In this document: piece after piece, positions 8,344 through 13,005 of the stretch
Layout: every line of letters begins with the position of its first letter
Position numbering within the stretch: the stretch's first letter is position 1
From: a virus
Virus record (IMG/VR): IMGVR_UViG_3300030410_000009
Coordinates: 1 to 35,817 of that record
Strand: one strand, 5' to 3'
Length of the DNA: 35,817 nucleotides
The notes under the pieces: model-generated
Databases searched by the model: none
The model's input: only the letters and a program-made list of their open reading frames with translations
Told to the model about the DNA's origin: nothing
Program-made: the position numbers and the translations under genes

Positions 8344-8490
8344 ATGAAAAATTTAAAACAATCATTCAAAAATATATTCGATTTCTTCACAGAAGATATT
8401 GAAGGCTTTATGTACCTAATTATTATTTTAATTATCGGATACAAGACAATATTATACGTTTACGAAAATAATACATTTGTATTATGGTAA
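8344..8490 (+). CDS. Small single-span membrane protein
   Basis: This 48-residue frame has a hydrophobic segment MYLIIILIIGY preceded by an acidic stretch FFTEDIEG. It overlaps the next gene by seven bases, consistent with coupled translation. There is no recognised family. Confidence 0.45.
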   Translation: MKNLKQSFKNIFDFFTEDIEGFMYLIIILIIGYKTILYVYENNTFVLW

Positions 8491-8810
8491 CAGAACTGAA
8501 ACAAATAACAGGGAGCAGATCGAGCAATACGCTGACAAGTACTAGAAATGTAATGTACCGGATTCAATTGAATAGCGAAGTTGTTAAGTGTATAGGGGGT
8601 TTTGAGTGCATGGTACAAAAAACAGATATAGGGTTCGTTATAATTCAAAATAGGTACGGGGTTGATTCTTTTGTATTAAGACCTAGCAAGATTACATCTA
8701 CCTACACATTAAATATTCCTAAACGATTAGTCGACCCTTGGAATGACTTAGGTAAATACGAACTAGAATTTGATTACGAAAATAATTGTGTTGAATTGAT
8801 AAAAGTTTAG
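8484..8810 (+). CDS. Hypothetical beta-rich protein
   Basis: The 108-residue protein is predicted to be mostly beta-strand. Its C-terminal segment YTLNIPKRLVDPWNDLG followed by ELEFDYENNCVELIKV loosely recalls AbrB/SpoVT-like swapped-hairpin DNA-binding domains. That likeness is weak and unproven. It ends just upstream of the attenuator-like RNA at 8835. Confidence 0.55.
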   Translation: MVTELKQITGSRSSNTLTSTRNVMYRIQLNSEVVKCIGGFECMVQKTDIGFVIIQNRYGVDSFVLRPSKITSTYTLNIPKRLVDPWNDLGKYELEFDYENNCVELIKV

Positions 8811-8829
8811 AAATTAGTTATTATATTTA
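8796..8829 (+). promoter_or_regulatory. Weak candidate promoter in front of the attenuator-like RNA
   Basis: TTG (8796-8798), 23 bp, then TATATTTA (8822-8829) resemble the TTG / TAnnTTTG consensus with one mismatch. The predicted start point would fall around 8835, exactly where the structured element begins. That agreement is the main reason to list it. Confidence 0.35.
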
Positions 8830-8834
8830 CGTAT

Positions 8835-8938
8835 TGAATCGCTTCGACAATATACGATTCACAGACATTTAAAGTCTAGCCATTTCAGAAAGTTACGAGG
8901 TCGAAGCCGTGATGATTAAGGAATGGCTTCTTTATTTT
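8835..8938 (+). promoter_or_regulatory. Attenuator-like leader RNA with mutually exclusive stems (riboswitch candidate)
   Basis: Several strong pairings compete. TGAATCG (8835-8841) pairs with CGATTCA (8855-8861). GCTTCGAC (8841-8848) pairs perfectly with GTCGAAGC (8900-8907). AGCCATT (8878-8884) pairs with AATGGCT (8922-8928). GAAGCC (8903-8908) pairs with GGCTTC (8925-8930), followed by TTTATTTT, a terminator-like hairpin. The two long-range helices would each occupy one arm of that terminator hairpin, the classic antitermination arrangement, or together form a pseudoknot. The element fills the leader of the small gene whose ATG is at 8939. The ligand or trigger is unknown. Confidence 0.55.
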
Positions 8939-9118
8939 ATGGAAAAAACCTTTTTATTAACATTCGTAAAAGACGGGAAAGTGGCTGTTTTGAATTCGCA
9001 CGTTTTAGTACAAGAAATACAACGGGAAAAGAAAGAACGAAGCTTAAACCCTCAGTACAGAGGTGGCAAATTACAGGTTCGTACATTAAAAGGATTTAAA
9101 GCAAAGCCGATATTATGA
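8939..9118 (+). CDS. Small basic protein behind the attenuator-like leader
   Basis: This 59-residue protein begins MEKTFLLTFVKDGKVAVL and ends in a basic tail (GFKAKPIL). An earlier in-frame GTG/ATG at 8909/8912 would put the coding region inside the hairpin, so 8939 is preferred. No family was recognised. Its basic character and tight control suggest a regulator or nucleic-acid-binding protein, as inference. Confidence 0.5.
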   Translation: MEKTFLLTFVKDGKVAVLNSHVLVQEIQREKKERSLNPQYRGGKLQVRTLKGFKAKPIL

Positions 9119-9137: not shown

Positions 9138-9169
9138 TTTGCTTGTAAAATTAAATTAACTTATATTTG
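9138..9169 (+). promoter_or_regulatory. Bacteroidota-type promoter giving a leaderless regulator transcript
   Basis: TTTG (9138-9141), 20 bp, then TATATTTG (9162-9169) are an exact consensus match. The ATG of the XRE gene is only three bases downstream (9173), so the transcript should start at or next to the start codon. Phage lambda cI transcribed from PRM is a well-known leaderless parallel. Confidence 0.75.
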
Positions 9170-9172
9170 TGT

Positions 9173-9328
9173 ATGATAATTAAAGACGTATTAAAAGAAA
9201 GGGGTATTAAAAAATCTTGGCTTGCTCAAAAGGTTGGCATATCAAGAACTATGATGTCATTCTATTTAAACGATGTTAGGCCAATGCCTTTAAAGGTTGA
9301 AGAAAAGATAAAATCTATCTTGTCATAA
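9173..9328 (+). CDS. Minimal XRE/Cro-type helix-turn-helix regulator
   Basis: This 51-residue protein is almost entirely a Cro/C1-type HTH: VLKERGIKKSWLAQKVGISR (about residues 6-25) carries helices 2 and 3, followed by MMSFYLNDVRPMP. WLAQKVGIS is the conserved turn region. It is expected to bind operator DNA as a dimer. It has no cleavage or oligomerisation domain, so it is Cro-like rather than a full CI. Its own promoter is at 9138-9169. It is too short for most gene callers but the HTH signature is clear. Confidence 0.85.
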   Translation: MIIKDVLKERGIKKSWLAQKVGISRTMMSFYLNDVRPMPLKVEEKIKSILS

Positions 9329-9365
9329 AAAAATTTATTAAAAACGTAACATAAAATTTACAAAT

Positions 9366-9770
9366 ATGAGTTATCTTGAATTATTAAGGCACCCAAAATG
9401 GCAAAAGAAAAGGTTGTTAATTTTGGAAAGGGATAATTTCACATGCTGTTATTGTTCAGATAAAGAAACTGAACTTCAAATACACCATTTAAAATATCAC
9501 AAAAATCCTTGGGATGCAAAAGATGAATACCTTTTAACGTTGTGTAAGGATTGCCATGGGCTGGTTACCGCTTTTAAAGATTTTGTTAATATTTCTGTTG
9601 AAAAGGTTGTTTTCCCAAATGGTGATGTAACTTTCTATGTAAGACATAATTATGAAGATTTTATAGCCATTTCAATGATAGAAAAGATGGATAATAATTA
9701 TAACGAGATTGTTCGTTTTAAACAAAATGGTATAAGTATTAACAAATTAATGAAATTAAATAATGGCTAG
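9366..9770 (+). CDS. HNH endonuclease
   Basis: This 134-residue protein has an N-terminal HNH domain: CCYC (about residues 20-23) as the first zinc pair, LQIHHLKYH as the catalytic HH strand, and LCKDCH as the second zinc pair. HNH proteins in replication modules may be homing-type nucleases or take part in DNA processing. Most of the remaining 65 residues are of unrecognised fold. It overlaps the next gene by eight bases. It is a free-standing gene, not inside an intron. Confidence 0.85.
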   Translation: MSYLELLRHPKWQKKRLLILERDNFTCCYCSDKETELQIHHLKYHKNPWDAKDEYLLTLCKDCHGLVTAFKDFVNISVEKVVFPNGDVTFYVRHNYEDFIAISMIEKMDNNYNEIVRFKQNGISINKLMKLNNG

Positions 9771-10521
9771 ACCTGAACGAACTACAGTAGACTATTTCCC
9801 ATTTCTTTGTAAAGAGGGTAAGGCAATGTATTTTATAGATAAAAAATACGGTAACGATGGATATGCAACATGGGTAAAAGTATTAAGAGAAATTGCAGTT
9901 ACAAGTAATCACCATTTAATATTGTCTAAAAATGTTGATATGATGTATATGGCTTCACGTTGCAATATCTCCACTGAATTGCTTGAAAATATACTTACCG
10001 ATTTATCAAATTTAGGGGAAATAAATATGGAATTATGGACTACTGCAAAGGTTGTTTGGTCTGACAAATTTATAGAACACATCCAAGATGCATATAAAAA
10101 GCGTAATAATAAATGTATTACTTTACCTAGTTTAAGGATACTTTTAACTAGTTTGAGTATCCTTTTACCAAGTAAAAGTAACAGTCAAGTACCCAATAAT
10201 ACACAAAGTAAAGTAAAGAATACTAAAGTAAAGAATACTAAAGAAGATGAAGGGTTTGAAGCATTCTGGAATGTTTACGATAAAAAAACAGATAAAGTCT
10301 CTTGTGAAAAAAAGTTTTTTAATTTAACAGAAAATGAAAAGGATTTGATTATGAATCATATTACCAAGTACGTTTTAAGCACTCCAGACAAACAGTATCG
10401 TAAGAATCCAGAAACATACTTAAAGAACAAGTGTTGGAATGACGAGATTATTAAACCAATAATTAAGCCCTCTAATACTGGGAGAATAAGTGGTGGTCAA
10501 AATGATGGATTTGTTAGTTAA
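9763..10521 (+). CDS. DUF4373-type replication initiator / replisome organiser
   Basis: This 252-residue protein has an N-terminal DUF4373 (Lin1244/Lin1753-like) winged-helix domain, recognised by YFPFLCKEGKAMYFIDKKYG and GYATWVKVLREIA and ending around residue 105. A linker with simple repeats follows (about residues 120-160). A C-terminal domain with FEAFWNVYDKK, YRKNPETYLKNKCWNDE resembles helicase-loading regions. It precedes the primase-helicase gene, consistent with origin recognition and helicase recruitment. The linker DNA contains the candidate origin repeats (10134-10245), as in lambda O. Confidence 0.8.
   Translation: MARPERTTVDYFPFLCKEGKAMYFIDKKYGNDGYATWVKVLREIAVTSNHHLILSKNVDMMYMASRCNISTELLENILTDLSNLGEINMELWTTAKVVWSDKFIEHIQDAYKKRNNKCITLPSLRILLTSLSILLPSKSNSQVPNNTQSKVKNTKVKNTKEDEGFEAFWNVYDKKTDKVSCEKKFFNLTENEKDLIMNHITKYVLSTPDKQYRKNPETYLKNKCWNDEIIKPIIKPSNTGRISGGQNDGFVS
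10134..10245. repeat. Iteron-like palindrome and direct-repeat cluster inside the initiator gene (candidate replication origin)
   Basis: AAGGATACT (10134-10142) and AGTATCCTT (10156-10164) are perfect inverted 9-mers flanking the palindrome AACTAGTT. CTTTTAC-CAA-GTAAAAG (10162-10178) is a second perfect palindrome. Two tandem 15-bp copies of TAAAGTAAAGAATAC follow (10209-10223, 10224-10238) plus a third partial copy. All lie in the coding linker of the initiator, where lambdoid O genes carry their origin. The direct repeats are in frame (KVKNT repeated). Confidence 0.5.
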
Positions 10522-10526
10522 AAAAT

Positions 10527-12170
10527 ATGATTGATTTGAGAAAATACGGTATCGAAGTAGGGAATAAAACAGCAGGTGAAACAAAGTGCATTTGTCCACA
10601 ATGTTCTCACACTAGGAAAAAGAAACAAGATAAATGCCTTTCGGTAAATCTTGATACGGGACAGTTTCATTGTTTCAATTGTGAATGGAAAGGTAGTGCT
10701 ATGCAAAGAGAAAAAGAACAAAAGACATATACGCTTCCTGTTAAGAACTTGACTAAGCTATCTGACAAGGCTCTGGATTGGTTCAAAGGTCGTGGGGTAA
10801 CACAAAGTACCATAATGAAATTTGAATTGACTGAGGGGCTTGAATGGATGCCACAGGAAAATAAAGAAGTTAACACAATTCAATTCAATTATTTTGAAGG
10901 CGAAACTTTAGTAAACGTAAAATATCGGGACGGGAAAAAGAATTTTAAACAGTTCAAAGGCGGTAAGCCTGTTTTTTACAACGTTAATTGTATGCCTTTA
11001 TTTGATGAAATTATAATAGTAGAAGGCGAAATAGATGCTCTTAGTTTTTATGAAGCAGGTTATCCAAATGTTATTTCGGTACCTGCCGGTGCCACTGACA
11101 GCGACACTGCAACGCTTGAATATTTAAACGTATGTTATGATTACTTGAAAGGTAAGCGGTTCGTTATCGCAGTGGATAACGATAAAAAGGGTATCGCATT
11201 TAGAAATGTATTGGCTAATCGACTAGGTAAGGATGTGTGTAAATACGTTCAATTTGAGGAAGGTGTGAAGGACGGGAACGAGCTTTTAATGAAATACGGA
11301 TCAGTTGATTTTCAGAACCATTTAGCAGTTTATGAGTTTCCACTTGAAGGAATTGAAAAACTAATTGACTTTGAAGATGATTTGGATAATATTTATTTTA
11401 ATGGTTACCCTGAAGGTATAAAAATAGGTTATTCACAATTTGACCAGTTAATGAGTTGGTTCACATCACAAGTTACAGTATTGACTGGAATACCAGGCCA
11501 TGGCAAATCTGAATTTTTAGACCAAGTCATGATGAAATTGGCAGAAATTAACTGGAAGTTCGGGGTGTTCTCAGCCGAAAACCAACCAACGGCACAGCAC
11601 GCAGTTAAATTAATAGAAAAGAAAGCTGAAAAATCAATGTTTGGCTTTAATAAAATGACTGATTATGACTATCAACAAGCTAAGATATTTATAAATGACA
11701 GGTTCTTTTTTATTAAGTTCAACGAAATAAACCTTTCAATTGATGCTATTTTACAAAGGGGTAAGGAGTTAGTAACAAGGCACGGGATAAAGATGTTAGT
11801 TATTGATAACTGGGCCAACCTTGACCACAACTACGCAGGTATGAACGAGCACCAGTATATCGGTCAATCATTGATTAAGGTGATGAATTTTTCTAAAATG
11901 TATGATGTTCACGTTGTTGTAGTTGCTCACCCTACTAAGATTTATAAGAACAAAGATACTGGTTTGCATGAGGTACCAAACCTTTATTCTATCTCAGGAA
12001 GTTCGCATTGGTTCAATAAGCCAGACAACGGTATAACGATTTATAGGGATATGAAAACGGGTTGTACAGAGGTTCATATACAGAAAGTTAGATGGAAATT
12101 TACTGGAAAAGTTGGGCATGCAGTATTTAATTGGAATAAAGAAAACGGTACATATATAGAACAATTTTAA
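10527..12170 (+). CDS. Bifunctional primase-helicase (DnaG-like TOPRIM plus DnaB-like RecA domain)
   Basis: This 547-residue replication protein is built like T7 gp4. The N-terminal zinc-binding domain has CPQC (Cys23/Cys26) and CFNC (Cys49/Cys52). A TOPRIM domain carries EIIIVEGEIDAL at about 160-171 and IAVDNDKKG at about 214-222. A hexameric helicase domain has Walker A GIPGHGKS at about 321-328 and Walker B MLVIDN at about 422-427. It should unwind duplex DNA and lay primers at the fork. It follows the initiator by five bases. No phage DNA polymerase was found, so host polymerase is probably recruited. Confidence 0.92.
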   Translation: MIDLRKYGIEVGNKTAGETKCICPQCSHTRKKKQDKCLSVNLDTGQFHCFNCEWKGSAMQREKEQKTYTLPVKNLTKLSDKALDWFKGRGVTQSTIMKFELTEGLEWMPQENKEVNTIQFNYFEGETLVNVKYRDGKKNFKQFKGGKPVFYNVNCMPLFDEIIIVEGEIDALSFYEAGYPNVISVPAGATDSDTATLEYLNVCYDYLKGKRFVIAVDNDKKGIAFRNVLANRLGKDVCKYVQFEEGVKDGNELLMKYGSVDFQNHLAVYEFPLEGIEKLIDFEDDLDNIYFNGYPEGIKIGYSQFDQLMSWFTSQVTVLTGIPGHGKSEFLDQVMMKLAEINWKFGVFSAENQPTAQHAVKLIEKKAEKSMFGFNKMTDYDYQQAKIFINDRFFFIKFNEINLSIDAILQRGKELVTRHGIKMLVIDNWANLDHNYAGMNEHQYIGQSLIKVMNFSKMYDVHVVVVAHPTKIYKNKDTGLHEVPNLYSISGSSHWFNKPDNGITIYRDMKTGCTEVHIQKVRWKFTGKVGHAVFNWNKENGTYIEQF

Positions 12171-12685: not shown

Positions 12686-13005
12686 ACAAGTACAGAAATA
12701 AAAAGACAATGTACAACGGTGTATTGTACGATTCGATGAAAGAATCATGTTACGCCCGTGAGCTTGATCTAAGAGTTAAAGCTAATGATATTAAAGCGTG
12801 GGTAGGAGATAAAAAGAAATTAAAGTTTCAAATCGTTGTTAACGGCAGCAGAATATGTACATACACCCCCGACTTTATGATAGTATCAAACGACAATAGT
12901 ATTGAATACGTTGATATAAAAGGAATTGAAACCACAGTATTTAAACTTAAGTGGAAATTGATACATGCACTGTATCCAGAATTAAAATTTATAATAATAA
13001 AATAG
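12682..13005 (+). CDS. DUF1064 family protein, predicted nuclease
   Basis: The 107-residue protein has the DUF1064 pattern: NKYRNKKT at the N-terminus, YDSMKESCYARELDL helix, TYTPDFMIV with the conserved Asp, and VDIKGIETTVFKLKWKLI. The E...D...DxKG arrangement resembles the PD-(D/E)XK nuclease core, and the family occurs in phage replication modules where a junction-resolving role has been proposed. Catalytic candidates are Glu21, the Asp of TPDF, and Asp/Lys of VDIKG. Confidence 0.75.
   Translation: MNKYRNKKTMYNGVLYDSMKESCYARELDLRVKANDIKAWVGDKKKLKFQIVVNGSRICTYTPDFMIVSNDNSIEYVDIKGIETTVFKLKWKLIHALYPELKFIIIK

Follow-up and report, generated by a model that had tools for sequence, protein, structure and literature searches.

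Background

The pT181 repC leader carries a countertranscript-driven attenuator that is built on an intrinsic terminator. In phage T4, the pseudoknot of the gene 32 mRNA nucleates gp32, and in type III toxin-antitoxin systems the ToxI RNA consists of tandem pseudoknot repeats, which are followed by a ToxN-like nuclease gene. Kissing loops and pseudoknots have been reported to control the rep genes and incompatibility of I-complex plasmids (PMC10724649). In Bacteroidetes, a 109-bp palindromic candidate RNA (HMP candidate 4078) has been described near phage D5_N domains (Fremin and Bhatt 2021, PMC8040213).

In the present study, we analyzed a leader located at positions 8835-8938 on the plus strand of an IMG/VR virus record. 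The window, which is the whole stretch of DNA analyzed, comprised 35,817 bases. Distant matches of its portal, primase, and terminase included Flavobacterium and other Bacteroidota phages, among others. The window also encoded a tail sheath and contained Bacteroidetes-type promoters (TTG-N17-23-TAnnTTTG).

The leader and its surroundings

The features of the leader and of the genes around it were as follows.

8484-8810: orphan ORF upstream of the leader
8796-8829, plus strand: probable promoter, from sequence (TTG at 8796-8798, a 23-nt spacer, and the -7-like box TATATTTA at 8822-8829)
8835-8861, plus strand: hairpin I with stem P0, TGAATCG (8835-8841) and CGATTCA (8855-8861), whose 13-nt loop contains the 5' kissing arm
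8831-8836 and 8848-8853, plus strand: alternative P0 (GTATTG and CAATAT), from the covariance-model alignment, likewise with GCTTCGA in its loop
8841-8848, plus strand: 5' arm of the kissing helix P1, GCTTCGAC, pairing with 8900-8907
8862-8877, plus strand: A/T-rich linker between the hairpins, CAGACATTTAAAGTCT, from sequence
8878-8928, plus strand: hairpin II with outer stem P2, AGCCATTTC (8878-8886) and GGAATGGCT (8920-8928)
8893-8897 and 8908-8912, plus strand: inner stem P2b of hairpin II (TTACG and CGTGA), with a 10-nt loop at 8898-8907
8900-8907, plus strand: 3' arm of P1, GTCGAAGC, in the loop of hairpin II
8929-8938, plus strand: U-rich tract TCTTTATTTT (8 of 10 T), directly 3' of P2, terminator-like
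8939-9118, plus strand: first gene of the unit, a 59-aa basic orphan protein with ATG at 8939
9138-9169, plus strand: promoter of the HTH gene itself (TTTG at 9138-9141, N20, TATATTTG at 9162-9169), conserved in contig L002
9173-9328, plus strand: HTH gene (Cro/C1-type) with an HTH_26 match
9366-9770, plus strand: HNH protein, replication module downstream of the leader
9763-10521, plus strand: Lin1244_N-domain protein, replication module
10527-12170, plus strand: DNA primase/helicase, replication module
9366-12170, plus strand: the whole downstream replication module

The leader probably controls the replication genes behind it. The AUG at 8939 lies immediately after the U-rich tract and agrees with the spacing from P2 to AUG in the family described below; the alternative ATG at 8912 lies within hairpin II. 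Homologue searches with the 59-aa protein found none, and direct relatives of the leader and the neighboring orphan proteins, sought by protein patterns and tblastn, were not found. An exact 17-mer scan for relatives of the leader returned two matches, both by chance. The closest phage contig, L002, had the HTH gene and its promoter in common with the window (88% identity over 225 nt) and carried other genes directly upstream. This conservation covered window positions 9138-9362, and the change just upstream of it marks a mosaic boundary immediately after the gene of the leader.

The sigma-ABfr consensus of Bacteroidetes is TAnnTTTG at -7 with TTTG near -33 (PMC7366714). The -7 box of the window, TATATTTA, has one mismatch to TAnnTTTG; because the match is imperfect, the transcript start site is one that we infer. 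An exact TAnnTTTG was present upstream in 15 of the 23 top-scoring family copies (score of at least 48) that precede an ORF.

Fold of the leader RNA

The first-pass annotation had described an attenuator-like leader with three competing helices, and the four helices it named were all present: the 8-bp helix P1 (8841-8848/8900-8907), the 7-bp helix AGCCATT/AATGGCT (8878-8884/8922-8928; 9 bp including one G.U pair, 8878-8886/8920-8928), the 7-bp helix TGAATCG/CGATTCA (8835-8841/8855-8861), and the 6-bp helix GAAGCC/GGCTTC (8903-8908/8925-8930). The minimum free energy (MFE) fold from ViennaRNA contained both hairpins unasked, with energies of -5.1 (hairpin I) and -16.5 kcal/mol (hairpin II), and the isolated P1 duplex yielded -11.7. 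The 7-bp hairpin that had been noted at the predicted transcript start was thus recovered as P0. The folding energy of the leader corresponded to z = -2.45. In the linker at 8862-8877, a 4-bp AGAC/GTCT hairpin is possible, and the family alignment gave a consensus of approximately AnATTAAnA for this part.

P1 and P2 had no base in common, and P1 and P0 had only one (G8841), so the helices are compatible with each other, contrary to the proposed mutually exclusive pairings. The sole exception was GAAGCC/GGCTTC, which is incompatible with both P1 and P2. These arms do overlap P1 and P2, as had been proposed for the terminator, but the pairing was absent from the MFE fold and from the architecture common to the relative L082 and the wider family. 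The GAAGCC/GGCTTC hairpin is therefore incidental, and the terminator-like part is P2 (AGCCATTTC/GGAATGGCT) together with the U-rich tract. A simple H-type pseudoknot of P1 and P2 was also considered and was replaced by kissing hairpins once P0 and P2b were seen. The comparative data lent good support to a leader in which a kissing helix connects the loops of two hairpins, rather than to competing helices.

Among shuffles, which preserved dinucleotides only, 0.2% had three or more perfect helices of 7 bp or longer within 104 nt. The same count was reached in 1.3% of stretches of this length taken from the contig itself, so that the sequence, viewed by itself, is no more than moderately unusual.

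A family of kissing-hairpin leaders

Among 172 loci scanned for the layout of the leader, many copies were found. A first loose pseudoknot scan without context gave little excess (promoter plus T-run, 10 versus 1 and 8 in shuffles). When the 5' hairpin and the start-codon context were added, the family stood out. In the start-anchored scan, we searched at the ATG of ORFs of at least 50 aa for a good pseudoknot whose P2 was followed by 6 or more T within 10 nt, and obtained 16 leaders versus 0.5 expected from shuffles. P0 flanking the 5' arm of P1 reached a score of 310 in 27 members, some of them interrelated, versus 220 ± 12.6 in shuffles. With P0 included, copies with a TAnnTTTG promoter and an ORF at a score of 48 numbered 15, versus 0.05 expected (20 shuffles). 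The locus sets had been fetched by recombination or replication genes; only a scan of six phage records and the blind-pattern set described below were free of this bias. The six Bacteroidota-type phage records contained two promoter-plus-ORF copies (morran9-1 and phi19:1) versus 0 expected, and a scan of phage lambda found none. Sequence similarity revealed one more copy, in phi18:3.

The blind pattern, ATTTGN{4,8}GTAATGARGTNNNNNNCATT, constrained P0, the end of the promoter, and two of the eight loop bases; the other six and everything downstream could vary. It matched 47 stretches of viral contigs in IMG/VR, 36 of them distinct. An exact 8-nt reverse complement of the own loop was found downstream in 35 of these 36 loci, which carried 10 loop sequences. 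The one exception, L202, was without the remainder of the leader.

Since MAFFT was unable to align the diverse members, covariation was measured on the alignable subfamily. Alignment A5, of 34 leaders, comprised 850 cells in P0, P1, and P2, and every one of them was paired. Two-sided changes were observed in 14 of 25 pairs, including 8 of the 11 pairs of P2, and the covariation score was 0.424 versus 0.181 ± 0.010 (reached in 0 of 500), with slid controls at about 0.10 or less. P2b, which encloses the 3' arm of P1, covaried in all four pairs and was paired in 96.9% of cells among the relatives. The 850 cells contained 57 G.U pairs, no A.C, and no other mismatches. This bias pointed to conservation of an RNA with the sense of the gene strand and not of a palindromic DNA site.

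The members had a common architecture. The predicted transcript begins with hairpin I (P0), which has a loop of about 7-13 nt and is followed by an A-rich linker. Hairpin II consists of P2, a purine-rich internal loop, P2b, and a loop of about 7-13 nt. The two loops form P1, with 6-10 bp, and a U-rich tract and the start codon follow. At least 6 T within the 10 nt after P2 were present in 32 of 34 relatives, which had not been chosen for the U-rich tract, and the mean T content after P2 was 69% versus 30% upstream of other genes. The AUG lay 9-55 nt farther downstream, with a single locus at 93 nt; its distance from P2 was 9-16 nt in the window, L082, L131, L133, L134, and L004. Members with a long spacer between U-rich tract and AUG (L095 2895-3073, L097, L118, L169, and L177) had one more conserved hairpin in common, for example CGGTAATCTTAAAACCG, immediately ahead of the AUG.

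Membership of the window leader and its relative in L082

The window leader had one alignable relative, at a different place in L082, a contig that matches part of the window's primase at 91% identity. Its order, namely the TATATTTG promoter, GTTCTCAC, GCCCTTTC, GTGAGAAC, GGAAGGGC, and TATCTTATTTTATG, matched that of the window. Four of the eight P1 pairs were changed on both sides relative to the window, and one P2 pair was changed from A-U to C-G. Compensatory changes in homologous leaders, which the first-pass annotation had advised seeking, were thus found there and in the subfamily, and the loss of pairing in close relatives that it had named as contrary evidence was not seen. The general reading of a structured leader RNA whose 3' hairpin is terminator-like gained strong comparative support.

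We also built a covariance model (R2) of P0, P2, and P2b from 15 members; P1 was omitted, and the window, L082, L131, and L134 were left out of the training set. The model matched L134 (E = 1e-4), L131 (E = 0.005), and L082 (E = 0.017). With filters off, its top match in the window was 8831-8941 (21.4 bits, with a weak E of 0.064; next 1.1), and with default filters the window leader was missed. This match by itself is suggestive. The subfamily model R1 did not recognize the window leader, its match at 8892-8941 being misplaced. Taken together, the full sequence architecture, the relative in L082, and the weak R2 score make it very likely that the window leader is a family member.

In L082, the leader and a 173-aa HNH/NUMOD-like gene (1779-2540) resembled an insertion relative to window positions 12938-13004 and were flanked by a direct repeat of about 67 bp. 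The L082 leader and the endonuclease may be mobile as one unit.

A second copy on the minus strand

The window contained a second kissing-hairpin RNA.

5164-5135, minus strand: strong promoter, TTG..TATATTTG
5131-5023, minus strand: second kissing-hairpin RNA, with no ORF directly behind it
hairpin I of this copy: CGTT and AACG around the loop GGACTAG
hairpin II of this copy: AAAGCCTG, AATGTA, the loop CTAGTCC, TACATT, and CAGGCTTT, then a T-rich tail
about 5476-5437, minus strand: piece resembling the 3' half of a tRNA, GTAAATAATTGCATGTTGGTTCGATTCCAACCTCATTTACA

The two 7-nt loops of this copy were exactly complementary in the MFE fold, its end was terminator-like, and a covarying homologue was found on the minus strand of L004 (4486-4385). 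A strong Bacteroidetes promoter (5687) stood some 200 nt upstream of the tRNA-like piece, for which ARAGORN made no call; the piece is possibly an att core or a tRNA-like RNA. In L004, too, a T-arm-like sequence preceded the stand-alone RNA.

Gene context of the relatives

The leader usually lay at the head of a replication module, often behind a TAnnTTTG promoter. The typical order after the 34 pattern-fetched leaders was an ORF of 59-92 aa, a protein of 200-300 aa, which was a replication initiation or primosomal protein where recognized, and a primase/helicase. The primase/helicase family phrog_239 accounted for 13 of the 54 downstream proteins scanned, and the remaining PHROG matches included replication initiation, primosomal, and HNH families. 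Homing-endonuclease-type genes stood behind some copies (L082 and L167). Among cultured phages, the leader preceded the replication operon in Flavobacterium Lillamyvirus and Muminvirus and in Cellulophaga phi19:1 and phi18:3; the record of Flavobacterium phage morran9-1 showed only a hypothetical ORF at the leader.

Small proteins of phrog_33177 (MAKFELKF...LDKSTAIKFAKTLRTEINKITE, alignment A7) recurred directly behind the leader and made up 11 of 23 first small ORFs, that of the window not among them. The phrog_33177 protein is a candidate autoregulator.

Proposed mechanism and rival explanations

We consider it rather probable that this untranslated leader of a phage mRNA, from an undescribed kissing-hairpin family, is a cis-acting leader of the attenuator type, which tunes the passage of RNA polymerase. 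Hairpin II with its U-rich tract would act as a leaky intrinsic terminator, that is, an attenuator. P1 could form once the loop of hairpin II is transcribed, ahead of the 3' arm of P2, and this loop-loop helix would set the speed and efficiency with which the terminator folds. The leader would in this way adjust the amount of RNA polymerase that enters the replication genes. Protein-controlled attenuation, which the first-pass annotation had named, may apply, and a phage protein, a host factor, or a trans-acting RNA might shift the balance. The stem followed by a U tract, which is a feature of intrinsic terminators, was present in the window as P2 and TCTTTATTTT. A consensus and pattern scan for a canonical terminator at the leader called none. 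The U tracts are interrupted (TCTTTATTTT and TTACTTTTTA) and the hairpin loops are long, and for this reason termination may be weak or may not occur.

A leader acting on translation is a less likely but serious alternative: the kissing complex, which lies directly upstream of the AUG, would gate ribosome access or serve an RNA-binding protein as its operator, and termination would not be involved. Bacteroidota genes are usually without Shine-Dalgarno control, which counts in favor of this explanation, as does the short ORF that recurs directly downstream and could encode an autoregulator. In the short-spacer members, including the window, the U-rich tract also lies in the ribosome-landing region, and there translational control fits equally well. 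Against it, the small downstream proteins do not form one family, and that of the window is without relatives. Across the members, the AUG moves over 9-93 nt while the U-rich tract stays fixed to P2, and two copies have no gene directly after them; the fixed tract and the gene-less minus-strand copy favor termination over a ribosome-site function.

Compared with attenuation in cis, a replication control of the plasmid type seems improbable. Here a trans-acting RNA would target the loops, whose sequence would make the control of phage replication self-specific and incompatibility-like; this RNA could be antisense, or it could be a terminated leader made by the phage itself or by one that superinfects. 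The leader does head replication operons, and its loops are variable yet self-complementary (10 variants in one subfamily). A search for sigma-ABfr-type promoters on the opposite strand, however, found one in 1 of 34 leaders versus 3 of 34 control stretches and none in the window, so antisense control of this type was not supported. Moreover, the complementarity lies within one RNA and needs no trans partner, and the element also occurs ahead of homing-endonuclease-type genes. Only as a speculation, and a doubtful one, do we raise a phage counterpart of plasmid incompatibility RNA, in which short terminated leaders accumulate and act in trans, via their self-complementary loops, on newly made leader RNAs from phages of the same type. 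If true, replication would be dosage-controlled, superinfecting kin would be excluded, and loop sequences would drift as specificity determinants. It is very improbable that the repeats act at the DNA level, as repressor operators or single-stranded DNA structures. All helices are inverted repeats near a promoter, as phage operators often are, and an HTH gene lies downstream at 9173, but the G.U pairs without A.C or other mismatches are unexpected for palindromic DNA, and the order of promoter, hairpins, U-rich tract, and gene is fixed. Chance pairing in an AT-rich leader is hardly credible: the helix count in same-contig windows and the lack of clear excess in the first loose scan are outweighed by the 35 of 36 compensated blind-pattern loci, the enrichment of 15 versus 0.05, and the compensated P1 and P2 in L082.

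Two other classes were considered. The resemblance to riboswitches suggested by the first-pass annotation was not supported for the metabolite-binding kind: the shared elements were only short (A-rich, GGA, and GAA), a rough alignment of 23 diverse members had two invariant columns, and with no invariant unpaired core visible across them a metabolite riboswitch is unlikely. As for a ToxI-type RNA, the leader is a single copy and the downstream ORF is without a family match.

Significance and comparison with known systems

The attenuator-type leader proposed here belongs to a recurrent, strongly covarying structured RNA of Bacteroidota phages that is outside Rfam and heads the replication operon of cultured phages. 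It offers a testable handle on the timing of replication genes in little-studied phages, whose hosts have an unusual sigma factor and make little use of Shine-Dalgarno sequences. None of the 4227 Rfam models reached the gathering threshold in the window or at the leaders of 12 relatives' loci, and matches by E-value (STnc100 and others) were sub-threshold noise. No description of a kissing-hairpin leader RNA was found in the open-access literature.

Like the pT181 repC attenuator, the leader lies before a replication gene, has a stem and U tract before the gene, and has RNA contacts upstream. It differs in that the search for an antisense promoter found none, the long-range contact is made by a loop-loop helix within one RNA molecule, and there is no conserved mutually exclusive antiterminator. 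The I-complex rep leaders (repZ/repA; PMC10724649) likewise have loop-based long-range pairing and variable loops in the leader of a replication gene. There, antisense RNAI binds stem-loop I, whereas here no antisense promoter was seen, and hairpin II of the phage leader carries a U tract. The antisense RNA that defines plasmid rep leaders was sought, by its promoter, and not found; we filed the leader as a new family of cis-acting leader RNAs. The fully complementary 7-nt loops of the minus-strand copy recall those of ColE1 RNA I and RNA II, which are two separate RNAs rather than one, and no Rop-like protein was identified here. The leader resembles the T4 gene 32 mRNA operator in that a structure of the pseudoknot class lies close to the 5' terminus of a phage mRNA, with an unstructured U/A-rich stretch ahead of the start codon; the leader has kissing hairpins instead of a compact H-type knot, and its downstream genes are not SSB genes.

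Two RNAs of the same host group were also compared. HMP candidate 4078 (PMC8040213), for which no terminator was predicted, was compared with the leader by description only. DUF805b RNA (RF02914) is a cis-regulatory leader in a Flavobacterium phage that also has a kissing leader (L095). It differs in being 35 nt long, conserved in sequence, and located at a separate locus of the same phage (L095 1578-1612), where a T-rich stretch and an ATG follow it; it is another structured leader in the phage group of L095. In summary, the leader represents a new RNA family of a known kind, the cis-acting leader RNAs, and is plasmid-rep-like in design.
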